From Rhodopseudomonas sp. (GTDB lineage Bacteria; Pseudomonadota; Alphaproteobacteria; Rhizobiales; Xanthobacteraceae): 64,000 nt of DNA. Position numbers and translations under genes: made by a program. The stretch covers positions 62,001-126,000 of the forward strand of contig WGNB01000007.1 of NCBI GenBank assembly GCA_016124795.1, given 5' to 3'. Each line of letters starts with the position of its first letter. The stretch's first letter is position 1. Positions 13,270 to 28,370 of this stretch are shown piece after piece. The notes under the pieces are model-generated. The model was given only the letters and a program-made list of their open reading frames with translations. It was not told the DNA's origin and ran no database searches.

Positions 13270-13838
13270 ACGACCGCGTCCACATCAGAGGCGAGCGGAA
13301 CCGGCGGCGCCAACAGACCGGCAGCGACGCGAAGGTCACGCAGGAAATGCAGGAAGAACTGAATGGCGGTGACTGCGGCGCCGAGCGTCACCAAAGCGTT
13401 GATCGGCCAGATATAGAAGACGAAAACCCCCTCAGTGCCGAGATATTCGCTTTGCTGCCAGGCATTGATCGTTTCCGGCACGCAGAAATACACCATCAAG
13501 GCCAGCAGAACCGCACCGACAAGGTGATGAAAACCCTGCACGGCATAACCGATGCGAGGGCGGTTCAGCAGCAGGCGGCCAAGCAGGCCGTCCGACCGGA
13601 TGAACCGCTCATAACGCAGCGCATGGCCGAGTTGGAGATAGATGATGCCGACAATCGACATCGACACGATCTCCACCGTTCCGACCAACGGCTTGTCGAA
13701 GAAATAACGTCCGGCAACGTCGGCATTAATCAGCAGCATCAGGAAGAAGATCCAGATGGTGCCGATCGCCCCGAGCCCTTCGGCCAAAAAGCCGAAGGGT
13801 CCGCGACGCGGCGCTGCTTCCGGGTGCCCGGTGCTCAC
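13266..13838 (-). CDS. dctQ: TRAP transporter small permease DctQ
   Basis: This protein of about 190 residues has four hydrophobic membrane segments and the DctQ hallmark NADVAGRYFFDKPLVGTVE near residue 39. It couples the large permease to the periplasmic receptor. The GTG at 13838 is chosen as start because it overlaps the dctP stop as GTGA, the usual coupling in this operon; an ATG four codons further upstream (13850) is the alternative. It lies between dctP and dctM. Confidence 0.93.
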   Translation of the reverse strand: MSTGHPEAAPRRGPFGFLAEGLGAIGTIWIFFLMLLINADVAGRYFFDKPLVGTVEIVSMSIVGIIYLQLGHALRYERFIRSDGLLGRLLLNRPRIGYAVQGFHHLVGAVLLALMVYFCVPETINAWQQSEYLGTEGVFVFYIWPINALVTLGAAVTAIQFFLHFLRDLRVAAGLLAPPVPLASDVDAVV

Positions 13839-14905
13839 TCTTTGTCCCACTCGCGGGCATGCTCGATGCCGGCCTTACGCGACAGGTCCATATAGGTAAC
13901 GAGGGTCTTGGTGCCGGGCTGGCCTTTCTTGTCGAGGCTGGCGGCCCATTCCTTGGCCATGTTCGGCAGCATCTTGGCCAGTTTCTTGCGCTCCTCGGCC
14001 GGCAAGGTCGAAATCTTGGCGCCGTGTGCGGCGGCAAAATCCATGCTGACTTGCGCGGCCTGTTGATAGGCGATAGCGACCTTGGTCTCATACTCCTTGG
14101 CGACGTCGATGAAGATCGTCTGCAGCTCCTTCGGGAATTTCTGCCAGCGGTTGATGTTGACCGTGAGATCGGAGGCCTGCTGGGCGCCAAAATTGATCTT
14201 CGTGATATAAGGCGCCACTTCGTAGAACTTGTACGGCTTGATCGCCGATTCAAACACGATGGTGCCTTCGATCACGCCAGTCTGCATCGAATTGTAATAG
14301 GTCGGCAGCGCGCCTTTCACCGGCACCCAGCCGCTGCCTTCCAGCCAACGCGACGCAAGCCCGGCGGTGCCGAATTTGTGGCCCTTGAAATCGGCGATGG
14401 TCGCGACCGGGAATTTGGTCACCGTATGGTAGGTATCGACGCCGATATTGGCGAGATGAACCTGCTTGTGCTTCTTGAAAGCGGCGTCCATTTCCGGCAT
14501 CGCTGCGCGCAATTGGCGAATGATGCCCATCAGCTTGACGAGATCATCGGTGCCGAACGGCGTGACGTAAGTGACCTGCTCAAGCGGCAACTTGTCGGCC
14601 TCGAACAGCGCCGGCACATAGCCAACATCGCCGATCCCCTTTTCGATCGCTTCCAAAACCTCATTCGGTTTTGCAATCGAGCCGGCGTAAGCCTGCGTCC
14701 ACTGGATCTTGTACTTGCCGCCGGCCGCGGCCAGACGCTTGTCGACCTCCGGAATGAAGAAGTCACGCAGCATCGCGACTCCAAAAGTCGCCGGCGGATG
14801 CCCGGCGACAACCGTCAACTTGATAACTTCCTGGGCCTTAGCCGGGGCCGCCGCAATGCCGACCGCCAGACCGGCGGCAATGGCAAACCGCAAAATCGAT
14901 TTCAT
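13835..14905 (-). CDS. dctP: TRAP transporter substrate-binding protein DctP
   Basis: This 356-residue periplasmic receptor has a signal peptide (basic MKSILRF, then an Ala-rich core, cleavage near AKA-QE at residue 25). The mature part contains the DctP family segments KFGTAGLASRW and the NRWQKFPKELQ C-lobe motif. It captures a carboxylate-type solute and delivers it to DctQM. The start at 14905 is chosen because GGGAGG lies 7 bases upstream; the frame runs on to 14950 without signal-like character. It follows the FAH-type hydrolase by 75 bases. Confidence 0.93.
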   Translation of the reverse strand: MKSILRFAIAAGLAVGIAAAPAKAQEVIKLTVVAGHPPATFGVAMLRDFFIPEVDKRLAAAGGKYKIQWTQAYAGSIAKPNEVLEAIEKGIGDVGYVPALFEADKLPLEQVTYVTPFGTDDLVKLMGIIRQLRAAMPEMDAAFKKHKQVHLANIGVDTYHTVTKFPVATIADFKGHKFGTAGLASRWLEGSGWVPVKGALPTYYNSMQTGVIEGTIVFESAIKPYKFYEVAPYITKINFGAQQASDLTVNINRWQKFPKELQTIFIDVAKEYETKVAIAYQQAAQVSMDFAAAHGAKISTLPAEERKKLAKMLPNMAKEWAASLDKKGQPGTKTLVTYMDLSRKAGIEHAREWDKE

Positions 14906-14980
14906 CTTATGTCCTCCCGTTTTCTCTTCGCCGGCTCGCTCCGGCACCATCGTTATTCCCGGCGCGGGCCGGGCGCGCTG

Positions 14981-15928
14981 TCAGCCCGTCTGCTCGACGA
15001 TTCGGTTACGCAGAACGCCAAGCCCTTCCACTTCCAGCTCCATCACATCGTTGGGTTTGAGGAAGCGGCCCAGCTCCAGGCCGCAGCCGCTGCCGACCGT
15101 GCCCGAACCGAAGAACTCGCCGGCCATCAGCGTTTCCTCATTCGAGGCATGCGCCAGAATGTCTTCAAATTTGTGCTGCATGGCGCCGCTATTGCCACGG
15201 CTCCATTCCTCGCCGTTGACGCGGGCCACCATCGTCAAATTATACGGGTCCGGCAGTTCGTCGGGCGTGACGAGCCAGGGCCCCATCACATTGCCGGTGT
15301 CGAAATCCTTGCCCTTGGCCGGACCAAGCTGGCCCTGCATTTCGCGCAACTGCGCATCCCGCGCGCTGATATCGTTGAAAATGCAGTAGCCGAAAATATG
15401 CTCGCGGGCCTTGTCTCGGCGAATGTTCTTGCCGCCCTTGCCGAGGAAAATGCCAAACTCAAGCTCATAGTCGAGCATCTTCGAGTAGCGCGGCCACAAC
15501 ACATCCTGGCCCGTGCCGATAACGCTGAAGCGGTTGCACTTGTAGTAGACCGGCTGTTCATACCAGACCGTAGGTACATCGATTGTCGCCGGATCGAGCC
15601 GCTCGGTGCCGATGCCGAACAGATAACGGTTGGCGCGCGCCTGCCGTAAATGCTTCTCGAAACAGAGGAAGTCCCGCATCTGGCGCGGTTCCGGAACCGG
15701 CGCCAGCAGCCGCTGTTCGTTCAGCGGTACAACGACAACACCATCGCCGCCCATCGCCAGCTTGCGCGCGCGGTCCAAGGCCACTTCGCCGCCATCGATC
15801 AGCGACAGCATGTCCCGAAACGCCGGTGCTTTGTCGCTTGCGGTGAAATCAACGATCCCGCGGCCATCGGCGGTCAAGGCGCCGATATGCCGCTCTCCGC
15901 CCGTGCTCTCAAACGTCACCAGTTTCAT
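14981..15928 (-). CDS. Fumarylacetoacetate hydrolase family protein
   Basis: This 315-residue cytosolic protein has the FAH C-terminal fold: YELEFGIFLGKGGKNI near residue 150, ISARDAQ near 185, KDFDTGNVMGPWLVTPDEL near 203, and the GSGTVGSGCGLELGR turn near 274. The acidic residues in the first and second segments would hold Mg or Ca. The family cleaves C-C bonds of 1,3-diketones or hydrates/decarboxylates aromatic ring-cleavage products. The substrate is unknown. Placement between a TRAP receptor and a metallo-beta-lactamase fold protein suggests catabolism of the imported compound. Confidence 0.9.
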   Translation of the reverse strand: MKLVTFESTGGERHIGALTADGRGIVDFTASDKAPAFRDMLSLIDGGEVALDRARKLAMGGDGVVVVPLNEQRLLAPVPEPRQMRDFLCFEKHLRQARANRYLFGIGTERLDPATIDVPTVWYEQPVYYKCNRFSVIGTGQDVLWPRYSKMLDYELEFGIFLGKGGKNIRRDKAREHIFGYCIFNDISARDAQLREMQGQLGPAKGKDFDTGNVMGPWLVTPDELPDPYNLTMVARVNGEEWSRGNSGAMQHKFEDILAHASNEETLMAGEFFGSGTVGSGCGLELGRFLKPNDVMELEVEGLGVLRNRIVEQTG

Positions 15929-15957
15929 CGGTCAGGTCCCAGTCGTCCGTTTGCCGT

Positions 15958-16938
15958 TCAGGATGTGTGATTGCGGCCGCAATTGCAGCGGCCTTCCCGA
16001 TGGAAACGGGCCATGTCTTTCCAGAGCTGCGGGCCAAGCGGAGTCTCCGGCGCGCCGAATTCGCGATAGAGATTGGCGACGTTGATGACCAGACGCTCGG
16101 AATCGATCCAGTCCGAATAAGGATCGAGCGCGATCTCGCAGGCGGCGTCGTAATAATTCAGGCCGGCGTCATAACGCTGGCGCGCTTCGCGTTCGATATA
16201 TTCAAGATAGCCCTTGAAATGACGCACTCCGGCCTTGTCGGTGATCGGGCCATGACCGGGCACCACGATATCGACGTCCCAGTCTAGGATGGTGTCACAG
16301 GCCTTGATCCAGTTGCCCACCGGACCGGCCCAGATCACCGGATGGCCGCCGACGAACATCACATCGCCGGCGAAAACGATCTTGTCGTCCGGCACGTAAA
16401 CCAGCGTGTCGCCACGGGTATGCGCCGGACCGACATGCAACAGCTCGACCCGTTTGCCGCCGACATGCAGCGAAAGCCTGTCCTCGAACGTCCGGTTCGG
16501 CATCGTGTAAACGATATCCTCGAACTGGAAATTCTTGCCCATCATCTCGTAAAGGAACTGTGCCCCCTCGCCGATCTTGGCGCGGTCGCGCACAAGTTCG
16601 GCCAGCACCGACGGCGGACGGTCCAGCATCTCCTCGGCGGTGCTTTTGGTGGCGATGATTTCGGCGTCCTTGACCAGCTGGTTGCCGAAGGTGTGGTCGC
16701 CATTGGCGTGGGTATTGACCAGGGTCTTGATGGTCTTCGACGCCGGGACCGCGTCGCGCATCGTATCGAGCATTTCGCGGGTCAGCGGAACGTCGAACAA
16801 GGTATCGACCAGCAGGTTGGCGTCGCCGTCGACGATCAGCCCCGCGTTGCTCCAGCCCCAGCCGCCGTCGGGCTGAAGGTAAGCGTAACAGCCGCGGCCG
16901 AGATCGTGCAGGCCCTTGGTGAATTGCCACTTGCTCAA
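15958..16938 (-). CDS. Metallo-beta-lactamase fold hydrolase
   Basis: This 326-residue protein has the metal motif NTHANGDHTFGN near residue 75 (His-x-Asn-Gly-Asp-His; the first His-x-His pair is changed to His-x-Asn). Further ligand candidates are HVGPAHTRGDTLVY near 167 and VVPGHGPIT near 218. The change at the first ligand pair is seen in several quinoprotein-relay or SoxH-like members of the superfamily. It has no signal peptide. A C-terminal Cys-x-Cys-Gly-Arg-Asn-His tail is notable and may bind metal. It is in the catabolic operon, 29 bases before the FAH-type gene. Confidence 0.88.
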   Translation of the reverse strand: MSKWQFTKGLHDLGRGCYAYLQPDGGWGWSNAGLIVDGDANLLVDTLFDVPLTREMLDTMRDAVPASKTIKTLVNTHANGDHTFGNQLVKDAEIIATKSTAEEMLDRPPSVLAELVRDRAKIGEGAQFLYEMMGKNFQFEDIVYTMPNRTFEDRLSLHVGGKRVELLHVGPAHTRGDTLVYVPDDKIVFAGDVMFVGGHPVIWAGPVGNWIKACDTILDWDVDIVVPGHGPITDKAGVRHFKGYLEYIEREARQRYDAGLNYYDAACEIALDPYSDWIDSERLVINVANLYREFGAPETPLGPQLWKDMARFHREGRCNCGRNHTS

Positions 16939-16987
16939 ACGTCTACTCCCCGAATGCCGCCGGCTTTTGCCGGTCGACCAGCTTGAA

Positions 16988-17683
16988 CTACTTCGTCGCT
17001 TTTCTGGCTTTGGCGACGCGACTGCGCCGCCCGCGCTGCTCGAAGCCGGCGACGATGAACTGAATGGTCTGCTCGATCAGCTCGGAGCGAATCGAAGCGT
17101 TGGCAACGCCTTTCGATATTCGCTTCAGGCGGTTATCCGGCGCGCAGTCCGAAACGATCGTCAGGATCGAGCCCAGCGCCAACGAATAGCGCCACCAGAC
17201 ATCGGCCTCCGACAGATGCGGCGCGGCCTTGTGCAACAGCGACACAGTGCGACGGGCAACGCCGGTGAAATGCCGCGGCCCGACTTCGGGCGCGAGATCG
17301 AGCTTGGCGAGCCGTAGCTGCTGAATGAGATAGATCAGCAACAGGCGCTGATCTTCCTCGCCTTCGACATAAGGCCGCAGCAGCGCGCGGAAGGTTTTTT
17401 CAACCGGCACGGGCTTGCCCTTGGCCGCGCGCTCCAGCGCGTCGTATTCGAGCTGACGGGCGGTGCAGACGTCGCGTGCGACCCGCTCGAAGATTTCATT
17501 CGCCAGGCCCTGCTTGGAGCCAAAATGAAAATTCACCGCGCCCAGGCTGATGCGCGCGTCCTTGACGATATCGCGCATCGTGGTGCGCTCGACGCCATGT
17601 TGCGCGAAACGCCGGCGCGCCGCCTGGGTAATGGCGGTGCGGGTCGCGCTGTCGCTGGCGTTGAACACTCGTTTTGAACGCAT
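16988..17683 (-). CDS. TetR/AcrR family transcriptional regulator
   Basis: This 231-residue regulator has a TetR helix-turn-helix in residues 14-60 (AITQAARRRFAQHGVERTTMRDI and then AVNFHFGSK). The C-terminal ligand domain is helical with Leu-rich stretches. The ATG at 17683 is chosen; the frame can start at a TTG at 17761, but that adds a basic tail unlike the family. It is the first gene of the run leading to MBL, FAH and dctPQM, so it probably controls them. A TTGAAC inverted repeat spans its own start codon, suggesting autorepression. Confidence 0.9.
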   Translation of the reverse strand: MRSKRVFNASDSATRTAITQAARRRFAQHGVERTTMRDIVKDARISLGAVNFHFGSKQGLANEIFERVARDVCTARQLEYDALERAAKGKPVPVEKTFRALLRPYVEGEEDQRLLLIYLIQQLRLAKLDLAPEVGPRHFTGVARRTVSLLHKAAPHLSEADVWWRYSLALGSILTIVSDCAPDNRLKRISKGVANASIRSELIEQTIQFIVAGFEQRGRRSRVAKARKATK

Positions 17684-17689
17684 GTTCAA
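17674..17689. promoter_or_regulatory. Inverted repeat over the tetR start, candidate operator
   Basis: TTGAAC-N4-GTTCAA spans the start codon of the TetR gene, and a third TTGAAC lies 13 bases further inside the gene (17661-17666). A TetR dimer bound here would block its own expression. The identity of the operator is inference. Confidence 0.4.
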
Positions 17690-17878
17690 TTCGTAACGCA
17701 GCCGCTCGCGGCGAGTCAAGACGCGGCGAGGCGCTGGCGGCCAGCGACGCGGATCCAACAATCGTCATGTCTCGATTGGAATGTACCGGCGCGGACCGCG
17801 CTATCGCGGCGCACCATGCAACATGTTCACAGGGGAGAAGACATCAGAGGCGCGAACGAACAGGCCGCGCCAGCCGCT

Positions 17879-18963: not shown

Positions 18964-20106
18964 ATGCAGCGCAGCACCGACCGCTTTCTCACGACGCATA
19001 CCGGCAGCCTGCCGCGCCCCGAAGACCTCATCAAAATGATGTACGCGAAGGAGGAAGGCGTTCCGGTCGACGCCACGGCCTTGGCGGCCCGGGTCAAGAC
19101 GGCGGTCGAGGAGCTGGTCCGGAAGCAGGCCGAGGCCGGCGTCGATCTGATCAACGACGGCGAAATGTCGAAGCCGAGCTATGCCACCTACGTCAAGGAC
19201 CGGCTCGAGGGCTTCGGCGGCACCGGCAATACCTTCATTTATCAGGACGTCCACGAGTTCCCGATGCTGGAGAAGCGGGTTTTCGGCGATCCCGGCCGCT
19301 CCCGCCGCAAGACCCCGGCCTGCAACGCGCCGATCGGCGTGCGCGACGCGCAGGCTCCGGTGGTCGACGCCGACAACCTCAAGGCCGCGCTGGGAAAAGT
19401 GAAATCGGTCGGCGGCTTCATGAGCGCCGCCTCGCCCGGCGTGGTCTCACTGTTCTTCCGCAATGACTATTACAAGGATTTCGAAACCTACATTTACGCC
19501 ATCGCCGACGCGATGCGGCACGAATACGAGACGGTCGCCAAGGCCGGCTTCGTCTTGCAGATCGACTGCCCGGATCTGGCGATGGGCCGGCATATTCAAT
19601 ACGCCGATCTCGATCTGCCCGCATTCCGCAAACGTGCGCAGCTCCACGTCGAAGCGCTCAATCACGCCGTCGCCAATATCCCGGCCGAGCAACTGCGCAT
19701 GCACGTCTGCTGGGGCAATTACGAAGGCCCGCATCACCGCGACGTGCCGATGGCCGATATCATCGACATCGTGTTCGCCGCCAAGCCCTGCGCGATTTCG
19801 TTCGAAGCCGCCAACCCGCGCCATGCCCACGAATGGGCGCTGTTCGAAACCGTCAAGCTGCCGGCCGGCAAGGTGCTGATCCCCGGCGTGCTGGAATCGA
19901 AATCGAATTTCATCGAGCACCCCGAATTGATCGCGCAGCGCATCGGCCGCTACGCCAAGCTGGTCGGCCGCGAGAACGTCATCGCCGGGTCCGATTGCGG
20001 CTACGGTACCTGGGTCGGCCAGGCCGCCGTCGATCCCGATGTGGTCTTTGCCAAGCTCAAGGCGGCAGCCGACGGCGCGGCGATCGCCAGCAAGCAGTTC
20101 TGGTAA
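18964..20106 (+). CDS. Cobalamin-independent methionine synthase II family protein (MetE C-domain type)
   Basis: This 380-residue single-domain protein resembles only the C-terminal catalytic half of MetE. It starts TTHTGSLPRP, then shows GVDLINDGEMSK near residue 59, the zinc-site segments MHVCWGNYEG near 243 (His-x-Cys) and GSDCGYGTW near 343 (Cys), and a Glu in SFEAANPRH near 280. Related proteins transfer the methyl or alkyl group from or to small thiols; the acceptor here is not known. It lacks the N-terminal half that binds folate polyglutamate in MetE. It stands alone, followed by an AT-rich spacer. Confidence 0.85.
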   Translation: MQRSTDRFLTTHTGSLPRPEDLIKMMYAKEEGVPVDATALAARVKTAVEELVRKQAEAGVDLINDGEMSKPSYATYVKDRLEGFGGTGNTFIYQDVHEFPMLEKRVFGDPGRSRRKTPACNAPIGVRDAQAPVVDADNLKAALGKVKSVGGFMSAASPGVVSLFFRNDYYKDFETYIYAIADAMRHEYETVAKAGFVLQIDCPDLAMGRHIQYADLDLPAFRKRAQLHVEALNHAVANIPAEQLRMHVCWGNYEGPHHRDVPMADIIDIVFAAKPCAISFEAANPRHAHEWALFETVKLPAGKVLIPGVLESKSNFIEHPELIAQRIGRYAKLVGRENVIAGSDCGYGTWVGQAAVDPDVVFAKLKAAADGAAIASKQFW

Positions 20107-20113
20107 TTTAAAT

Positions 20114-20143
20114 TAGGTTGTATTTATTACACTAGACAACCTA
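20114..20143. promoter_or_regulatory. Inverted repeat upstream of the cupredoxin gene
   Basis: Arms TAGGTTGT (20114-20121) and ACAACCTA (20136-20143), separated by 14 bases, lie in an AT-rich spacer 44 bases before the cupredoxin start. It resembles a regulator site or part of the promoter for the copper and molybdenum operon. No matching regulator gene is nearby. There is no T run, so a terminator for the MetE-like gene is less likely. Confidence 0.4.
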
Positions 20144-20187
20144 TGGGTGTTTTGGCATCCTGCCGCGCGTGAGCGTGGGAGGGTGGC

Positions 20188-20544
20188 ATGGCGGAGTGGT
20201 CGATCAAGATCGTCCCGGTAAAAAAGCCCGGACCTAAGCTGCGGGCGAAATTCGTTCCGCAATTGCAGGAGAACGGGCCGACCGGGCTGAATGTCTCCAC
20301 CGGCGACGTCGTCTCCTGGAACAACACGACCAACGACCTTCATCAGCCGATAGCGGCCGACAAAAACTACAAGCCGCTCGGCGTTGCGCCCGGCACGCCG
20401 AATTACCTGTCGAACGACATTCCCAAACATTCGTCGTCGGAACCGGGATGGGTGGCGAATTCAAGCGGCGCTCCTCCGGCCACGATCTACTACGTCTGCG
20501 CCTACCACGACGACGAGCACGGCATCATCACGATCACCGACTGA
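20188..20544 (+). CDS. Cupredoxin-like copper protein without signal peptide
   Basis: This 118-residue protein has a plastocyanin-like layout. His52 (NDLHQPI) and the C-terminal loop YYVCAYHDDEHGII, with Cys104 and His107, match the type 1 copper ligands. The usual axial Met place four residues on is held by His111 instead. The ATG at 20188 has GGGAGGG upstream, so the start is secure and no signal peptide is present. A cytosolic cupredoxin would be unusual; a leaderless partner of the downstream oxidase is possible. It precedes the multicopper oxidase gene by 75 bases. Confidence 0.75.
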   Translation: MAEWSIKIVPVKKPGPKLRAKFVPQLQENGPTGLNVSTGDVVSWNNTTNDLHQPIAADKNYKPLGVAPGTPNYLSNDIPKHSSSEPGWVANSSGAPPATIYYVCAYHDDEHGIITITD

Positions 20545-20619
20545 GCCGACCGCCGGCAATGCCGGAACGCAAAGCTTTTTTGACGCGAGCCTTTTTCAAT
20601 CGATGGAAGGGTCAATGTC

Positions 20620-23106
20620 ATGACGATGTCCGCCGTTGACATGATTGCCGGCCGACGGTCGCGCCGCCAGAACCTGCAAACAAGGTCGCGACCGCAATGC
20701 AAAACCCGACAGGCCGGGTTTGGCTCGGCATGTCTGGCCGTCGCCGCCGTTTGCGCGACAGCCTTGCTGACGACGGCGAACGCATCGGCGCAAACCGCCG
20801 CACCCACCGGCGGTCAATACATCGCTTGCGCGGCATCCGGCCAGCCATTGGTGCGGATTCCCGAGCTTGTGAGCAAGAACGGCAAGCTGCGCGGCGCCAT
20901 CGTGCTGAGCGTCGAAACCAATCGCATGAAAGAGAAGGCGCCAGGCAGCGACAATGATTGTGTGCGCCAATACAACCGGGCCTATCGCGCCGTGAATGGC
21001 ACCCTGCCCGACTATCCCGGCACGACGCCACCCGGCTTTGCCGGATACAAGCCGCCGGCCAACCAGGGCTCCATTCCCTTTAGCGATCCGCTGCCGGGGC
21101 CGACCTTGCGCGCCCATGTCGGCGACCTGATCGAACTGAGCTTCATCAATCAGATCGACACCGGCGTCTTCGTCAATTCGGTCGACCGCGGCGAGCGTTT
21201 CGATCCGTCGCAAGGCTGCGATCTCGGCAACGGCACCGTGAGCTATCCTTACTCCGATCGCTATCCGGACTGTTTCCACGGTTCAAGCACCGGTAACATC
21301 CATTTCCACGGCACCCATACCAATCCGTCGTCCACCGGCGACAACGTTTTCATCGAAGTACGACCGTCACCGCGCAACAAGAACAACCAGCCGACGGTGA
21401 CGCCCGGCAGCGTGCAGGGCGATTTCGCGCAATTCTTCGCCGCCTGCGAGAAGGCCCTGAGCAAGAGCCAGTTGTCGCAATGGCCCTATAGCTGGAATGA
21501 CATGCCGGCGAGCTGGACGAGAAAGCAGAAGGCCCTGCTCCAGCAATACGACGCCAACCCCAACATCAAGAACAAGCTATGGCCGGTCGACGCGGCGCAG
21601 ATCGCGGTCGGCGGCTGGCCGCAATATTACATCGGCGCCTATCCATACTGCTATCGCCTGCCCGCTTATCAAGAGCCGGCCGCGCCGACGATGCCCGCGC
21701 ATGCCGGCATGATCATGCCACCGCCGGAAGTCCTGCATATGGGCCAGGCGCCGGGCACGCACTGGTACCATTCGCACAAGCACGGCTCGACCACGATCAA
21801 CGTCACCAACGGTATGACCGGCGCCTTCATCATCGAAGGAAAGTATGACGAGCAGCTCGACGCCTTCTACGGCAAGGGCTGGATGCGCAAACAGCCGATT
21901 ATCGAGATCCAGGAACTCAACGGTCCGCCCAATCTGTTCGCCGGCGGCAATAGCACGCCCGCCGACAAGATCGATTTCGTCGTCAACGGACTGCCGAAGC
22001 CGACGATCGCCATGCAGCCAGGCGAAGTGCAATTGTGGCGAATTATCAATTCGGCCGCCCGAAGCGGCGCCTATTTCTCGCTGCCCGCCGGTGTACACTG
22101 GCGACAGATCGCCCAGGACGGCGTGCAGTTTTCGCCGGCCAATTACTGGAACAGCGCCGACAAGCCATTCCTGATGGCGGCCGGCAACCGCGCCGACATT
22201 CTGGTACAGGCGCCGACGACCGCCGGCAACGTCGACGTCAAGGTCGTCAAGACTGTCAAGGATACGGAAATCTACGGGCCCAAGCCGAACGCACCGATCA
22301 CCTTGCTGACGATGGCGGTCGGTGGAACGCCGGCAAGCGGACCGCAAAGCCAGTTCGTGCCGCAAAACCAGGCGCCGACATTACCGGCATTTCTCTTCGA
22401 TATCACCGCCGATCAGGTCAAAGGCACCAAACGCATCGTCTTTGAATCGCTGAAGCCGGTACCGACGCCGGAACATCCCGCCCTGCCCGCCGGCCCGCCC
22501 TTCACCCGCCAGACCATCGACGGCAAGGAGTTCGATGGCGAGGTCGGCGAAGTCGTGCTGTTGAACAATATCGAGGAATGGACGATCGCCAACCGTTCGG
22601 TCGGCCCGGTGATCAACCATCCGTTCCACATTCACATCAACCCATTCCAGGTGGTCGAGGTGTTCGATCCGAACGCGCCGTTACGCGACAGCAACGGCAA
22701 CGTCGTGGAAAAGACGGCCGGCGTCGCCGACCCGTTACCGCTTTATATTGTCTCCACCACCTCGCCGGCGACGCCGACGAACCCGGCCGATCCGAAAAAT
22801 CCGCGATTGCTCAAGAACGGCCAATGCTGGGTCAATCCGGACTTCGAGGCGACGTGGCGACCCTGCGGCCAGCAGGCCGGCAGCGACCTCATCTGGTGGG
22901 ATGTCTTCCCGATCCCGGCCGGCACGAAAGGGACCGATACGGCCGGCAAGGCGGTCGTGATCCCCGGCTATTTCAAAATGCGCAGCCGCTTTGTCGACTA
23001 CAAAGGCTTCTACGTTCTGCACTGCCATATCCTCGCGCATGAGGACCGCGGCATGATGACGGTGGTCGAGGTGGTGCCGCGCAAGACCATCTACGCGCAT
23101 CACTGA
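20620..23106 (+). CDS. Multicopper oxidase
   Basis: This 828-residue protein has a long basic N-region, a hydrophobic segment (about 36-58) and probable cleavage near ASA-QT, so it is exported. The four copper motifs are present: HFHGTH near residue 228, HWYHSHKHG near 384, HPFHIHINPFQ near 666 and the type 1/type 3 motif HCHILAHEDRGM near 801, with an axial Met. The enzyme is larger than CueO (about 500) because of insertions in the first domain. It oxidises Cu(I), Fe(II), Mn(II) or phenols in family members; the substrate here is unknown. AAGGG 8 bases before the ATG supports the start. It runs into the methyltransferase with 2 bases between. Confidence 0.9.
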   Translation: MTMSAVDMIAGRRSRRQNLQTRSRPQCKTRQAGFGSACLAVAAVCATALLTTANASAQTAAPTGGQYIACAASGQPLVRIPELVSKNGKLRGAIVLSVETNRMKEKAPGSDNDCVRQYNRAYRAVNGTLPDYPGTTPPGFAGYKPPANQGSIPFSDPLPGPTLRAHVGDLIELSFINQIDTGVFVNSVDRGERFDPSQGCDLGNGTVSYPYSDRYPDCFHGSSTGNIHFHGTHTNPSSTGDNVFIEVRPSPRNKNNQPTVTPGSVQGDFAQFFAACEKALSKSQLSQWPYSWNDMPASWTRKQKALLQQYDANPNIKNKLWPVDAAQIAVGGWPQYYIGAYPYCYRLPAYQEPAAPTMPAHAGMIMPPPEVLHMGQAPGTHWYHSHKHGSTTINVTNGMTGAFIIEGKYDEQLDAFYGKGWMRKQPIIEIQELNGPPNLFAGGNSTPADKIDFVVNGLPKPTIAMQPGEVQLWRIINSAARSGAYFSLPAGVHWRQIAQDGVQFSPANYWNSADKPFLMAAGNRADILVQAPTTAGNVDVKVVKTVKDTEIYGPKPNAPITLLTMAVGGTPASGPQSQFVPQNQAPTLPAFLFDITADQVKGTKRIVFESLKPVPTPEHPALPAGPPFTRQTIDGKEFDGEVGEVVLLNNIEEWTIANRSVGPVINHPFHIHINPFQVVEVFDPNAPLRDSNGNVVEKTAGVADPLPLYIVSTTSPATPTNPADPKNPRLLKNGQCWVNPDFEATWRPCGQQAGSDLIWWDVFPIPAGTKGTDTAGKAVVIPGYFKMRSRFVDYKGFYVLHCHILAHEDRGMMTVVEVVPRKTIYAHH

Positions 23107-23108
23107 CA

Positions 23109-23891
23109 GTGGCCAGCCCGGCGTCTGTCATGTCAAATTTCGACGCCGCGGCCGCCGCGTTCGACCGCCACCGCGCCTTGCCCGAAGACGCGGCACGGGC
23201 GGTGCGGACCGCCGTGTTGCACGCATTGCCGCCACGGCCGCGTTTACTCGATCTCGGTGCAGGCTCGGGCCGGATCGGCTGGCCCTTCATAACGGCCGGC
23301 GACGACTATATCGGACTCGATCTATCACGCGGTATGTTGCAAGCGTTCCGCGCCCGCAGCACGACAGCGCGGCTGGTACAAGCCGACGGTTGCGCCCTGC
23401 CCTTCGCCAATGAAACCTTTGACGGCGTACTGCTCGTGCAGATCTTCGGCGGACTCAGTCAATGGCAGGCCCTGCTCGGTGAAGCCTTGCGCGTGCTACG
23501 TCCGGGCGGCGCTTTGATAATCGGCCGGACACGAACGCCGGACGACGGCGTCGACGCCAGCATGAAGCGTCAACTCAGCGTCATTCTGGGCGAACACGGC
23601 GAGCCGGCGGAAAGCCGGAACAGCCGCGAGCCTACGCAGCGACAGTTGCGCGATCTCGCGGCCACCGACGTCGAAATCGAGGCCGCGCATTGGCAAGCCG
23701 ACCGCAGCCCGCGCGGCTTCATCGACCGCCACGCCAGCGGTGCACGCTTTGCGACCCTGCCGCCAACGCGGCGGTGCGACGCCTTGCGTCAACTGAGCGT
23801 CTGGGCGACCGGCCGCTTCGGCAGTCTCGACGCTCATGTCACCGAAATCCACCGCTTCACGCTACGCATTTTCAAATTCGCGGAAAGGTAA
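23109..23891 (+). CDS. Class I SAM-dependent methyltransferase
   Basis: This 260-residue protein has motif I LLDLGAGSGRIGWPF near residue 46, an acidic residue after YIGLDLS (motif II), and the motif LRVLRPGGALIIGRT near 131, all typical of class I methyltransferases (Methyltransf_11). It starts with GTG at 23109, 2 bases after the multicopper oxidase stop; an ATG at 23130 is the alternative. The 3-base gap to mosB at 23895 makes it part of the operon. The acceptor is unknown. A role in modifying a metal chelator or the storage protein would be speculation. Confidence 0.88.
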   Translation: MASPASVMSNFDAAAAAFDRHRALPEDAARAVRTAVLHALPPRPRLLDLGAGSGRIGWPFITAGDDYIGLDLSRGMLQAFRARSTTARLVQADGCALPFANETFDGVLLVQIFGGLSQWQALLGEALRVLRPGGALIIGRTRTPDDGVDASMKRQLSVILGEHGEPAESRNSREPTQRQLRDLAATDVEIEAAHWQADRSPRGFIDRHASGARFATLPPTRRCDALRQLSVWATGRFGSLDAHVTEIHRFTLRIFKFAER

Positions 23892-23894
23892 CAC

Positions 23895-24740
23895 ATGCCC
23901 AACGCCGACACTTCGCTGCTGACCGAACTCGGGAAAAAGCTCGTCGCCGGATCGCTGAACGACGCCGCCTTGATGAACGCCACCGACGACACGCCCAACA
24001 TCGCCATTCTACCCTGGGCCAATGTCGTCAAGATCGGCGGCCAGTCGATCATGGATCGCGGACGCAGCGCGGTCGGGCCGCTGGTCGATGAGATCGTCGG
24101 CAACCTGCGCAAACACAAGATGATCCTCGGCACCGGGGCCGGCACCCGTGCGCGGCACATCTATAGTCTCGCCATCGACCTCGGTCTGCCGACTGGCGTC
24201 CTGACCGTGCTGGGCACCGCGGTCGCGTGGCAGAACGCCCAGATGCTGCAATACCTGCTAGCGCGCCACGGCATCGCTTTTCTGGAGCCGGAGAGCTTTC
24301 CGTCGTTGCCGCATTACCTGATGGAGCGCGGCGCGGTCATCTGTCAGGGCATGCCGCCTTATAAATTATGGGAAAGCAACCCGGCGGTCGGCCGCATCCC
24401 GCCGCAGCGCACCGACACCGGCTGTTTCCTGATCGCCGAGGTCTATGGCGCGCGCAAGATGATCTACGTCAAGGACGAGGACGGTCTCTATACCGCCGAT
24501 CCGAAGAAGGACGCCAAGGCAAAGCACATTCCGCGCATCAGCCTGCAGGAATTGCTCGAACGGGATCAGGACGACCTGGTGGTCGAGCGCGCGGTGCTCG
24601 ATCTGATGCTGACGGCCCGCCACATTCGCGAAATCCAGTTTGTCAACGGCCTGCGACCCGGCCATCTGAGCGCCGCGCTCGACGGCAAACCGGTTGGCAC
24701 GGTCATTTACAACGCCGCATTCAAGGGTGCCACGCAATGA
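23895..24740 (+). CDS. mosB: Molybdenum storage protein subunit beta (MosB-like)
   Basis: This 281-residue amino-acid-kinase-fold protein closely resembles the Azotobacter MoSto beta subunit. It has VVKIGGQSIMDRGR near residue 43, GTGAGTRARHIYS near 78, QGMPPYKLW near 152, IPPQRTDTGCFL near 169 and YVKDEDGLYTADPKKD near 192. MoSto is a cytosolic heterohexamer that hydrolyses ATP to deposit polyoxomolybdate or tungstate clusters in its cavity. It differs from UMP kinase by these segments and by its length. It overlaps mosA by ATGA. The copper-oxidase operon context is unusual. Confidence 0.9.
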   Translation: MPNADTSLLTELGKKLVAGSLNDAALMNATDDTPNIAILPWANVVKIGGQSIMDRGRSAVGPLVDEIVGNLRKHKMILGTGAGTRARHIYSLAIDLGLPTGVLTVLGTAVAWQNAQMLQYLLARHGIAFLEPESFPSLPHYLMERGAVICQGMPPYKLWESNPAVGRIPPQRTDTGCFLIAEVYGARKMIYVKDEDGLYTADPKKDAKAKHIPRISLQELLERDQDDLVVERAVLDLMLTARHIREIQFVNGLRPGHLSAALDGKPVGTVIYNAAFKGATQ

Positions 24741-25552
24741 ACGTCATTCCCGGCGCCCAACACGTCGTCTCGAAGCTCATGCGCGAATCGCTGGTCGACC
24801 GGCACGTTATCGCCGGGTCGGAAGCACCGACCCGCGCCATTCTGCCAAACCTTAATGTCATTCAGATCGGCGGACTGTCGATCATGGATCGGGGCCAGAC
24901 GGCAGTGATGCCGCTGCTGGATGAAATCGTCGCCTGTCAGGATGACCACACCCAGGTCATCGGTGTCGGACCCGGCGTGCGGGCGCGCCATATTCTGTCG
25001 GTCGGACTCGATCTCGGCATGCCAACCGGAGCGCTCGCCGTGCTCGCCGGCAAATCCTCGGCGCAGAACGCCTATATGGTGTCGTGCTTGCTCGCCAATC
25101 ACGGCTTCGTCTATCTCGAAGCCCCGTTCATCGTGCAATTGCTGCCGGCGATGCTGGCGGCGGCACGCGGCGCGGTGTTCAACGGCATTCCGCCTTACGA
25201 CCTGTGGGAGCACCCGCCCGCTATCGGCAAGATCCCGCCGCATGGCAGCGATGCCGGTTCCTATCTGGTCGGCGAGGTTTTCGGCGCGCGCTCGATCATT
25301 CTGCTGAAGGATGTCGACGGTCTGTACAGCGCCGATCCCAAAACCAACCCCGACGCCGAATTCATTCCGGAAATCAGCGCCGCCGATTTGATCGCGCGCA
25401 GACTGCCGACCCTGCCGATCGAACCGGTGGTGCTGGAACTTCTGACGCGGGCGCGGCTCGCCAAGAGCATCCGCATCGTCAACGGCCTAAAGCCCGGCAA
25501 CCTGACCCGCGCGCTCAATGGCGAGGCGATCGGCACCGTGATCCATCGCTAA
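24737..25552 (+). CDS. mosA: Molybdenum storage protein subunit alpha (MosA-like)
   Basis: This 271-residue paralogue of MosB has IQIGGLSIMDRGQ near residue 43, VGPGVRARHILSVGLDLGMPTG near 79, NGIPPYDLWEHPP near 152, IPPHGSDAGSYL near 169 and LLKDVDGLYSADPKT near 191. It is the likely alpha partner: it keeps the PPH segment that in MoSto-alpha contributes a His to molybdate binding, and the SVGLDLG segment of that subunit. It starts in the mosB stop (ATGA). It ends 4 bases before the convergent stop of the VTT gene. Confidence 0.88.
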   Translation: MNVIPGAQHVVSKLMRESLVDRHVIAGSEAPTRAILPNLNVIQIGGLSIMDRGQTAVMPLLDEIVACQDDHTQVIGVGPGVRARHILSVGLDLGMPTGALAVLAGKSSAQNAYMVSCLLANHGFVYLEAPFIVQLLPAMLAAARGAVFNGIPPYDLWEHPPAIGKIPPHGSDAGSYLVGEVFGARSIILLKDVDGLYSADPKTNPDAEFIPEISAADLIARRLPTLPIEPVVLELLTRARLAKSIRIVNGLKPGNLTRALNGEAIGTVIHR

Positions 25553-25556
25553 CAGG

Positions 25557-26225
25557 TCAAACGTCGGGACTGGGCGTGCGCAAGCGCTTGTAAATTCGCG
25601 GCGCCATGATGACGATCGCGATCAGCGCCAAAGCGCCGAGCGCATAGCGAATGTTATTGGTATCGCCGGCGACCGCCTGGCCGCCCGCATAACCCATCCA
25701 TGTATAGGCAATGGTCGACGGCAGCATGAAGATCACCGTCGCGAGCATGTAGTGCACGAAAGAGATGCCGGTCACGCCGAGCAGATAATTGACAATCGTA
25801 TAGGGAAAGATCGGCACCAGACGCACGAAGGCGACAAAGCGCCAGCCATCGGCCTTGACGCTCTTGACGACCTTCTGCACGCGCGGACCTGCACGGCGCT
25901 CAACCCAATCGCCGGCCAGATAACGCGCGATCAGAAAGCCGCCTGCTGCCCCCAGCGACGCACCAGCGAGATTGCAAAAGCTGCCGAGGATTGGTCCGAA
26001 CAACACGCCACCGGCAAGGTCGAAAATACCGCCGGGAATCAGCGCCACAGTGGCGACCGCATAAATCACGACAAAGGCAACCGGCGCCCAAACGCCGAGA
26101 CTGGCAATGCGGGCCTGAATGCCGTCGATGCTGGTAACGCCGTCAAATACCCACGCCAAGGCCAAGCCGCCGGCAACGATCAGCAGAACCAGCAGCGCGA
26201 TAAACCAGCGTCGTGAATTCGTCAT
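25557..26225 (-). CDS. TVP38/TMEM64 (VTT domain) membrane protein
   Basis: This protein of about 222 residues has an N-terminal membrane anchor (residues 8-28), two hydrophobic hairpin segments, and the VTT signature: GGIFDLAGGVLFGPILGSF near residue 61, then GASLGAAGGFLIARYL, VRLVPIFPYTIVNYLLGVTGI near 134 and a C-terminal span. DedA/TMEM64 relatives are inner-membrane proteins linked to lipid transport and proton motive force. The ATG at 26225 is chosen; a TTG at 26258 extends the frame. It is convergent with mosA. Confidence 0.9.
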   Translation of the reverse strand: MTNSRRWFIALLVLLIVAGGLALAWVFDGVTSIDGIQARIASLGVWAPVAFVVIYAVATVALIPGGIFDLAGGVLFGPILGSFCNLAGASLGAAGGFLIARYLAGDWVERRAGPRVQKVVKSVKADGWRFVAFVRLVPIFPYTIVNYLLGVTGISFVHYMLATVIFMLPSTIAYTWMGYAGGQAVAGDTNNIRYALGALALIAIVIMAPRIYKRLRTPSPDV

Positions 26226-26363
26226 TGCCCGGCAATCGGTGGCGACAAATGGGCTCAAGCTCAGCCGACGGAGGCCAGGCGCGGATATGGCAAGCCAACC
26301 ATGCTCGCCGACAACCCATTGAGTTACCGCGCGGCTTCTAAAGAAAACCGGCCGGAAGTCAAG

Positions 26364-28370
26364 TTAACCGGCCCCGGCAGCCGACCCGTGCAACGCGACA
26401 TCGATATGATCGGGCGGCAGGCCGTCGCGATGCCGACTCATCATGGCTTCGAAGGCGAATTCGAGATCGTGGGTATAACGCGCGGTATCGAATAATGGCT
26501 TGGCCGGCCGGTCGCTGGCCAATCGCTGTCTCAGCGCCATAAGCGCGGTGCGGTCGTTATAAAGACCCACCGCCCGCTCGATATAAGCCTGCGGCGTCGT
26601 CACGATCAGTTCCGACAGTCCGGCCGCACTCAGCAGGCTGGCCGCCACCCGGCCGGCAAAGGTTTCACCGATCAAAGTCAGAACCGGCAAGCCGGCCCAG
26701 AGCGCATCGTTGGCGGTGGCATGGGCGTTGTAAGGCAGCGTATCGAGGAACAGATCGGCCAAGGCGAGCCGCGCCAGATGGTCGGCATTGTCCGGCACAC
26801 GTTTGGCGAATATCAGCCGCGAAGGATCGACGCCTTTCGCCTCGGCCTGCCGCCGCAAATTCGCGGTCGCGGTGGCATTGCCTTCCGATAACCACAGCAC
26901 GCTGCCGTCGCATTGCTTCAGGATGTCCATCCAGCGATCGAAGCTCGCCGGATTGATCTTGTAATTGTTGTTGAAACAACAGAACACGAAACTGTCCGCC
27001 GGCAAACCGAAGGCGGCGCGGTCGATCGGTTTATCGGCAATCGCGCGCCGCGAATCGTTCGGCATATAGCTGTTCGGCAGGGTAACGATCTTCTCGGCGT
27101 AGTGCCGATGCCGCTCGGGCGGGATCAATACCGGGTCGCCGATCAGGTAATCGATGTAATCGGCGCCGAGCGTGCCGGCATAACCGAGATAGTTGACCTG
27201 AATGGGTGCCGGACGGTGCGCCAAGATGCCGGGACTGGCGCCGGCGGTGTAGCCCATCAGATCGACGGCGATATCGACATCAAGGTCGCGCAGCATCCGC
27301 ACCACTTCGCCGTCGCCGCGGGTGCCGACATCGACGAAACGATCGAAAGCCTTTTCAAGCCGGACACGCATCGCGCCCGTGTCGCGCGGACCGAACGAGA
27401 CAGCGACGGTTTCGAACCGCGCCCGGTCGTGCCGTTCGAACACGCCCGCCAGCAGATAAGCCACCGGATGGTCGCGCAAGTCTCCCGACAGATAGGCAAC
27501 ACGAATGCGCGGCCGATCATGACGCTGCCCGGTCCACACCGCGGACTCCGGCGGCGCATAGTTTTCCTTGTTGAAGGCCCTGGCGTAACGCAACTGCTCT
27601 TCGGGCGAACACGGCAACGACAACAGCGTGAACGGGTCGGCCGCCAGGCGATCGGCGATCGAGGCCAGAAGATGCGCGCAATCGGCGTCATAGTCGCGCC
27701 AGTCGCACAGGTTCATCTTGCTGAACAGCCGTGCGCCTTCGACGCCGGCCAATGTCGGGTTCAGCGCCAGCGCCCTGGCATAGGCGTCGAAAGCTTCGTC
27801 ATGACGACGCTGCTCGTTGAAGATATTGCCGCGTCCGAGCCAGGCTTCGGCCGAATTCGGATCGACCGCAATCGCTTTGTCGAAATCGGCAAGCGCCTCT
27901 TCGTAACGCTTGAGCTTGCTCAAGGACTTTCCGCGATTAACCAGCGGCCCGGCGATTTCCGGATTGAGCGCGATGGCGCGGCTGAAATCGGCAATCGCCT
28001 CGTCGTGGCGCTGCAACGTGCTCAGGACCGTGCCGCGATTATTCCAGCTCTCGGAAACATTGGGATTGAGTTCAAGCGCCTTGCCAAACTGCACCAGGGC
28101 CTGTTGCGGCTTGTTGAGGTGCTTCGAAATCAGACCGTAATTATAGAACGACACGTCCGAGCTTTGATGCAGCATGACCGCCTTGGCGACGAAGCGCTCG
28201 GCCTCGGCGAAACGTTGCTGGCTCATCAAGACAACGGTCAACAGATTGAGCGCCGCGATATGCCCGGGCTGCTTGTCGAGAACCCGCCGGAACAATTTCT
28301 CGGCCTTGTCGAACTGGCGACCGTTAAGCGCCGCGATGGCGTCGGACATTAATTTATCGGGCAAGCTCAT
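26364..28370 (-). CDS. TPR-containing O-linked N-acetylglucosamine transferase, SPINDLY family
   Basis: This 668-residue protein has an N-terminal TPR superhelix (roughly residues 1-210, seen as repeated patterns such as SWNNRGTVLSTLQRHDEAIAD), then a Glyco_transf_41 domain. Segments include RIRVAYLSGDLRDHPVAYL near 284, GYTAGASPGILAHRPAPIQVNYLGY near 365, CCFNNNYKINP near 460 and LFLDTLPYNAHATANDALWAGLP near 540. The family transfers GlcNAc from UDP-GlcNAc to Ser/Thr. The target is unknown; no flagellin or adhesin gene is adjacent. The ATG at 28370 is chosen rather than the TTG at 28457. Confidence 0.92.
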   Translation of the reverse strand: MSLPDKLMSDAIAALNGRQFDKAEKLFRRVLDKQPGHIAALNLLTVVLMSQQRFAEAERFVAKAVMLHQSSDVSFYNYGLISKHLNKPQQALVQFGKALELNPNVSESWNNRGTVLSTLQRHDEAIADFSRAIALNPEIAGPLVNRGKSLSKLKRYEEALADFDKAIAVDPNSAEAWLGRGNIFNEQRRHDEAFDAYARALALNPTLAGVEGARLFSKMNLCDWRDYDADCAHLLASIADRLAADPFTLLSLPCSPEEQLRYARAFNKENYAPPESAVWTGQRHDRPRIRVAYLSGDLRDHPVAYLLAGVFERHDRARFETVAVSFGPRDTGAMRVRLEKAFDRFVDVGTRGDGEVVRMLRDLDVDIAVDLMGYTAGASPGILAHRPAPIQVNYLGYAGTLGADYIDYLIGDPVLIPPERHRHYAEKIVTLPNSYMPNDSRRAIADKPIDRAAFGLPADSFVFCCFNNNYKINPASFDRWMDILKQCDGSVLWLSEGNATATANLRRQAEAKGVDPSRLIFAKRVPDNADHLARLALADLFLDTLPYNAHATANDALWAGLPVLTLIGETFAGRVAASLLSAAGLSELIVTTPQAYIERAVGLYNDRTALMALRQRLASDRPAKPLFDTARYTHDLEFAFEAMMSRHRDGLPPDHIDVALHGSAAGAG

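Follow-up and report, generated by a model that had tools for sequence, protein, structure and literature searches.

The question raised by the stretch of Rhodopseudomonas sp. DNA analyzed here (contig WGNB01000007.1, positions 62,001 to 126,000, 64,000 nucleotides in all; hereafter the window) is why two genes resembling mosB and mosA, which encode the molybdenum storage protein (MoSto), lie directly behind genes for a copper oxidase and a methyltransferase. The locus consists of five plus-strand genes, encoding a cupredoxin-like protein of 118 amino acids (window positions 20188–20544), a laccase-like multicopper oxidase of 828 amino acids (20620–23106), a class I S-adenosylmethionine-dependent methyltransferase of 260 amino acids with a GTG start (23109–23891), a MosB-like protein of 281 amino acids from a MoSto-related clade (23895–24740) and a MosA-like protein of 271 amino acids (24737–25552). 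The intergenic gaps are 75, 2 and 3 bases, followed by a 4-base ATGA overlap between mosB and mosA, and both the open reading frame coordinates and the spacing confirm the layout given in a preliminary description of the window. The oxidase and mosBA-like genes are one conserved set, beyond chance, which is tentatively read, at less than even confidence, as a two-module cassette in which extracytoplasmic copper-oxidase chemistry would feed an ATP-driven, MoSto-like cage for a metal oxyanion.

Conservation of the gene set

A species-level genome collection was scanned with the MosB-like protein, which yielded 22 relative loci (numbered with the prefix L), and the five window proteins were mapped onto each. 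These loci are labeled to four phyla, a count that could be three, as L021 and L017 may be binning errors; in the tree, the neighbors of L021 (labeled Gammaproteobacteria) are acidobacterial loci, and those of L017 (labeled Solirubrobacterales) are Pseudomonadota loci. The possibility, raised in the preliminary description, that homologous loci rarely keep the oxidase is not borne out, since the oxidase gene is linked in 18 of the 22 loci and absent from L024–L027. It stands directly before the methyltransferase gene in 13 of the 18, is separated from it by an exporter gene in L021, and lies elsewhere or on the other strand in L016, L017, L019 and L020, so that the linkage outlives rearrangement.

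The other genes are kept with similar regularity. The methyltransferase gene is upstream of mosB in 20 of the 22 loci, the exceptions being L027, which starts inside mosB, and L024, which has an ABC exporter cut by the contig end in that place. Members of one ABC-exporter family are found directly before the methyltransferase in L019, L020 (MsbA-like) and L021, and before mosB in L024. In all 21 loci measured, a mosA start codon shares a four-base overlap (NTGA) with the end of mosB; the window is counted here, and L024 and L027 are not. The cupredoxin-like gene, searched for with a profile of 11 homologues, is directly upstream of the oxidase gene in 16/16 fetched loci with that side visible (contig ends truncate L009 and L017) as well as in the window, seven of the profile matches falling outside the training set with E values from 1.4e-23 to 2.2e-9; it is a strict partner of the oxidase gene. 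Neither the oxidase nor a cupredoxin-like gene (same profile, E up to 0.01) was detected at 11 loci belonging to other MosBA clades. No scaffold-building gene recurs in the gene set of the mapped loci.

The association also holds genome by genome. Five of the 60 relatives of the host (host included) contain MosB, and the same five contain the oxidase at E < 1e-60, one further genome giving only a short generic oxidase match (1.3e-12). Among 200 Acetobacteraceae, the three genomes with MosB of the window clade (over 500 bits; the third clade described below) are also the three with the oxidase (E < 1e-50). No oxidase match at 1e-10 was found in three genomes that carry other MosBA clades, nor any MosBA at 1e-40 in three whose oxidase matches range from 4.6e-11 to 1.1e-14. 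The corresponding Fisher p values, in which kinship is ignored, are 1.8e-7 and 7.6e-7. A chance neighborhood is thus rejected, as the linkage recurs across phylum labels and the oxidase and this MosB clade co-occur genome by genome. Of 13 genomes searched through their loci, nine contain the oxidase, each at the mos locus; one of the nine carries a further oxidase piece on another contig, which is probably the rest of the same gene. Over 16 complete loci, the oxidase, methyltransferase and Mos distance matrices are correlated (Mantel r 0.63–0.78, 0/5000 permutations), the pattern that joint inheritance or joint transfer of the set would give, with mean identities of 80% for MosB, 79% for MosA, 46% for the oxidase and 49% for the methyltransferase. 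MosBA genes are rare: the host is the only one of 398 genomes in a Pseudomonadota sample with a MosB-like match, and any MosBA clade is detected at 1e-40 in 7/347 genomes of the phylum sample around an Acidobacteriaceae genome and in 3/246 of that around an Isosphaeraceae genome, these two genomes included.

The MosB- and MosA-like subunits

Both Mos-like proteins score over the Pfam cut-off for PF00696, which has the amino-acid-kinase fold, and each has the MoSto beta chain as its best PDB match, the MosB-like protein at 6e-86 and the MosA-like protein at 1.6e-68. The window MosB shares 55% identity with Azotobacter MosB, while the window MosA shares 46.7% with Azotobacter MosB and 42.9% with Azotobacter MosA. 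A pair of alpha-like and beta-like genes is present in 23/23 loci of the window clade (the window and the 22 relatives). In a midpoint-rooted tree of 69 subunits, all of these loci, including those of the oxidase-less Isosphaeraceae, constitute a third clade, whose alpha and beta subunits each form their own 23-row clade with support of 100/99. The true MoSto clade comprises Azotobacter, L073, L085 and L086, and the window proteins fall outside it. A second clade comprises L070, L071, L072, L080 and L081 together with the divergent L084; it groups with the third clade in the beta part of the tree (99/94), and its MosB proteins are the nearest to those of the window clade (58–67% identity).

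The residues at the metal-binding positions set these clades apart. The position of His140 of MoSto alpha, which we take to be the W3 ligand at the threefold axis, is occupied by Met or Ile in 23/23 members of the third clade. A review describes Glu129 and His156 of MoSto alpha as covalent ligands of a Mo8 cluster and, for the threefold-axis site, speaks of three symmetry-related histidines (PMC4504029). In the third clade the Glu129 equivalent is kept in 23/23, whereas histidine is found at the His156 position in 0/23, its place being taken by Asp, Ala or Ser. In the second clade the equivalents of Glu129, His140 and His156 are all absent in 6/6, Glu129 being replaced by Pro in each. In the corresponding stretches the third clade is marked by near-invariant residues specific to it, namely K106, Y113, C117 and Q134 in alpha, and E133, H140 (21/23), C150 (21/23) and Q171 in beta.

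Judged by tree position and ligand residues, the third clade is related to MoSto but does not belong to it. It shares with the MoSto of Azotobacter vinelandii (MosA/MosB; PDB 2ogx, 4f6t) the paired alpha/beta subunits of amino-acid-kinase fold, the adjacent genes and Glu129, but differs in its separate place in the tree, in the missing His140 and His156 equivalents, in the addition of a cupredoxin-like protein, a multicopper oxidase and a methyltransferase, and in its hosts, which have no nifH over cut-off. None of the three additional genes was detected at the true-MoSto loci L073, L085 and L086. The earlier assignment of mosB-mosA to MoSto itself therefore has to be narrowed: paired MoSto-related subunits are indeed encoded, but they lie outside the Azotobacter clades, alpha His156 is absent in 23/23 and the window MosA is nearer to MosB than to MosA.

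Molybdate transport genes and nitrogenase

Indirect evidence of a link to molybdenum lies in the second clade, whose members come from Acidobacteriota and Planctomycetota samples and, for L084, from an Acetobacteraceae sample. In four of its six loci the methyltransferase, MosB and MosA genes are joined to modABC (L070, 4903–11704; L071, 6103–12959; L080, 3094–10032; L081, 368–5609). ModA, ModB and ModC of L080 are each over the NCBIfam cut-offs, an ABC-2 exporter is found at L070, L071 and L080, and in L070 the methyltransferase-mosBA genes, modABC and the exporter are all on one strand. These loci resemble the window locus in the methyltransferase gene before mosB, in MosB identity and in the beta tree, and three of them resemble some window-clade loci in having an ABC exporter; they differ in that no oxidase or cupredoxin-like gene was detected, modABC is adjacent in 4/6 and Glu129 is replaced by Pro. 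No publication on the methyltransferase-MosBA-modABC arrangement was found in the open-access literature among the matches listed.

Transporter genes adjoin mos-like genes elsewhere as well. In the third clade, modAB is divergent from the cassette at L021; at L086, of the true MoSto clade, the adjoining genes encode a fused permease-ATPase and a binding protein that is WtpA-like but below cut-off. At L074 (4797–10858, from an Acidobacteriota sample), modABC precedes a mosA-like/mosB-like pair that is very divergent and in reverse order; L074 and L075 both sit on long branches and have no assigned place in the subunit tree. Because modABC or modAB adjoins four second-clade loci, L021 and L074, and a transporter adjoins L086, the family as a whole would most likely hold molybdate or tungstate; in the oxidase clade, one locus (L021) and homology point to the same oxyanions.

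A link to nitrogenase is not supported. In 22 host genomes, several of them drafts or metagenome-assembled genomes, no nifH over cut-off was detected (0/22), with weak matches in 18, and the genome of the window's host gives only two weak Fer4_NifH matches of 27 bits. As far as these incomplete genomes allow, the cassette in these hosts probably does not serve to supply nitrogenase.

The methyltransferase

The methyltransferase exceeds the Pfam cut-offs for PF08241 and PF13649, its nearest solved relative being TTHA0223 (2yqz, 5.8e-30). As a methyltransferase gene also directly precedes mosB in 5/6 second-clade loci, this enzyme is assigned to the cage module and not to the copper enzymes, the second-clade methyltransferases sharing about 26–31% identity with those of the window clade. 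Its substrate is probably a small molecule or a ligand of the system.

The copper proteins

The oxidase is over the Pfam cut-offs for PF07731 and PF07732, and its top four PDB matches are all laccases, including one assigned by name to Thermus thermophilus. The four copper motifs, including HCHxxxHxxxGM, are intact in the window oxidase and in every aligned relative whose motif lies inside the contig. The N terminus of the window oxidase looks like a signal peptide, as do most of the 18 N termini inspected by eye, so that the enzyme is probably exported. It shares with bacterial laccases and CueO/PhsA-type oxidases the four copper motifs and the Met-Met after the last motif, but is distinguished by its 828 amino acids and by NCBIfam scores far under the cut-offs for CueO (47.7 of 525 bits), CopA (19.5 of 478.95) and, likewise, PhsA. 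A copper-resistance operon of the CueO/CopA type is not supported by these scores. The locus L022 (1850–7106) carries a tandem of two cupredoxin-like/oxidase pairs, where the first oxidase has a twin-arginine-like leader, the other oxidases being Sec-type in look (by eye).

The cupredoxin-like protein has no Pfam match, and a single-sequence search of PDB gives a best E value of only 0.066. A profile of 11 homologues places amicyanins and plastocyanins on top (best E 5.4e-4), the first 23 of 30 rows being cupredoxins or copper nitrite reductase and spectrin chains appearing from E 0.45, which weakly supports the name of a cupredoxin fold. The window protein contains the His/Cys/His motif. By eye, the full set is present in 12/18 homologues (window included) and incomplete in 6/18, so that the protein is probably not a conserved copper electron carrier. 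An in-frame leader is impossible in the window protein, as its ATG is preceded by only five open codons. At most 18 residues precede the domain in 10/18 homologues, and 22–70 in the other eight, where a leader is possible. Compared with small cupredoxins such as amicyanin and plastocyanin, the protein has profile similarity and, in the window, His/Cys/His, but it is leaderless there, the family often has Glu near the usual position of the axial Met and the motif is incomplete in 6/18. The pairing of a leaderless cupredoxin-like protein with an oxidase bearing an export signal is itself puzzling.

Proposed function

In the two-module cassette proposed here, the first module would be the cupredoxin-like protein and the laccase-like oxidase with its export signal, active outside the cytoplasm, where the oxidase would most likely oxidize an organic ligand or a reduced form holding the metal. 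Compounds resembling catechol are oxidized by laccase-type enzymes, and ligands of this kind bind molybdate in soils; no publication on the latter point was found in the open-access literature. The freed oxyanion, most likely molybdate or tungstate, would enter by ordinary ABC uptake. The second module, of methyltransferase, MosB-like and MosA-like proteins, would then use ATP to pack it into a cage of MoSto type with inner ligands unlike those of Azotobacter MoSto. Export of the oxidase, the cargo, the substrates of both enzymes and the direction of flow are inferred, as is the step from oxidase to cage, by which copper chemistry would be coupled to molybdenum. The wider proposal, that this is a second MoSto-related metal-oxide cage with new inner ligands in non-nitrogenase bacteria, loaded with the help of a dedicated exported copper oxidase that strips the metal from organic ligands or changes its redox state, and that the set spreads between phyla as a unit, is less likely than not.

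Several observations weigh against the two-module cassette. No observation ties the oxidase directly to a metal ligand, and cage genes occur with no oxidase match in three Isosphaeraceae genomes and one Bryobacterales genome, so that the cage does not need the oxidase. Four of the five carriers among the relatives and all three among the Acetobacteraceae are genomes of fetched loci; the samples are thus not independent of the 22 loci and add absences, not new presences. As for the cargo, the histidines equivalent to His140 and His156 are missing throughout the third clade, no mod genes were found in the available flanks of the window and the 21 fetched loci other than L021, modA is over cut-off in 14/23 third-clade genomes, the host included (other transporter families were not searched), and a search of window positions 19000–26500 found no Rfam element, including the molybdenum cofactor riboswitch, at E up to 1. 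In the alpha part of the tree, moreover, the second clade groups with true MosA (98/95, with long branches) and not with the window clade; given this conflict with the beta subunits, the branching order of the clades is unsettled, and the second and third clades are not called sisters.

An alternative is a re-tooled cage that has given up molybdate storage and whose cargo is another oxyanion, or a metal handled by copper chemistry, which the oxidase converts outside the cell before uptake; this explanation we consider possible but doubtful. It would fit the loss of both histidine equivalents together with the clade-specific near-invariant residues, the scarcity of mod genes beside third-clade loci, the lack of the oxidase at the 11 loci and in the three genomes with other MosBA clades, and the strong constraint on MosBA, at about 80% mean identity against 46% for the oxidase over 16 loci. 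However, Glu129 is kept in 23/23 and modAB stands beside L021, and the second clade, which has neither the histidines nor Glu129, still sits mostly with modABC, so that loss of the histidines alone does not exclude molybdenum.

It is rather improbable that MosBA is an ordinary small-molecule kinase of the uridine monophosphate (UMP) kinase fold, in a cassette that makes and exports a methylated, oxidized small molecule and stores no metal. Methyltransferases and oxidases are common tailoring enzymes, and both types are present here beside proteins of the PF00696 kinase fold; one ABC-exporter family in L019, L020, L021 and L024 and the ABC-2 exporter in L070, L071 and L080 would supply the export. 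MoSto subunits are nevertheless by far the closest relatives, the first ordinary kinase among the PDB matches of the MosB-like protein appearing only at 3.7e-8 against 6e-86 for MoSto; alpha-like/beta-like pairs occur in all 23 loci, the second clade is joined to modABC, and no scaffold-building gene recurs. That the oxidase and mosBA are accidental neighbors in a lineage, with no shared role, is very improbable, since in spite of the four of 22 loci that lack the oxidase and the varied order or orientation in L016, L017, L019 and L020, the two remain linked after rearrangement and under several phylum labels, the co-occurrence is exact in both genome samples, and in nine oxidase-bearing genomes the oxidase is found nowhere but at the mos locus.

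If the two-module cassette is correct, this uncharacterized gene set may represent a new means by which bacteria collect and store a scarce metal. MoSto, an (alpha-beta)3 cage loaded with Mo/W oxide clusters by ATP hydrolysis, serves as a model of how a protein builds polyoxometalate clusters, and the two further MoSto-related clades have different residues at the known ligand positions, one being mostly tied to molybdate transporters and the other to a dedicated copper oxidase in hosts with no detected nifH. What the cage contains, what use it is to a non-diazotroph and how copper and molybdenum metabolism meet are thereby raised as testable questions. A 2019 study describes MoSto as rather unique and knows of no homologues in protein databases (PMC6448029); some plasmid records now annotate MoSto homologues. 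In the open-access literature, no paper joining 'molybdenum storage protein' with 'multicopper oxidase' was found, nor anything on the five-gene set among the matches listed.

Plasmid relatives and neighboring genes

MosB relatives are present at 1e-30 on 10 Azospirillum plasmids, and no oxidase match was found on plasmids at the same threshold. The three of the 10 regions that were read list no oxidase or cupredoxin. In one of the plasmid loci (L087, incomplete gene table), a methyltransferase/glycosyltransferase gene is divergent from mosB. Genes annotated as 'uridine kinase' or 'uridine monophosphate kinase' adjoin 'molybdenum storage protein subunit alpha' in L087 and L088, and are probably misannotated mosB.

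Around the operon, a simple consensus scan of window positions 19900–25800 gave no sigma-70-like promoter, and in 17 fetched loci the only Rfam elements at the gathering threshold were two tRNAs, suhB and Acido-Lenti-1. GC content is 0.585–0.650 over the 14–32 kb part of the window, and the operon borders show no obvious break, so that recent transfer is not indicated by composition. A MetE-like gene (Meth_synt_2; 18964–20106) lies directly upstream on the same strand and may or may not share the operon transcript; a homologue is also present in L007, L008 and L011. Farther upstream, the minus strand (13835–17761) encodes a TRAP-type binding protein, an FAA hydrolase, a metallo-beta-lactamase-fold protein and a TetR regulator, which together constitute an ordinary-looking catabolic cluster.

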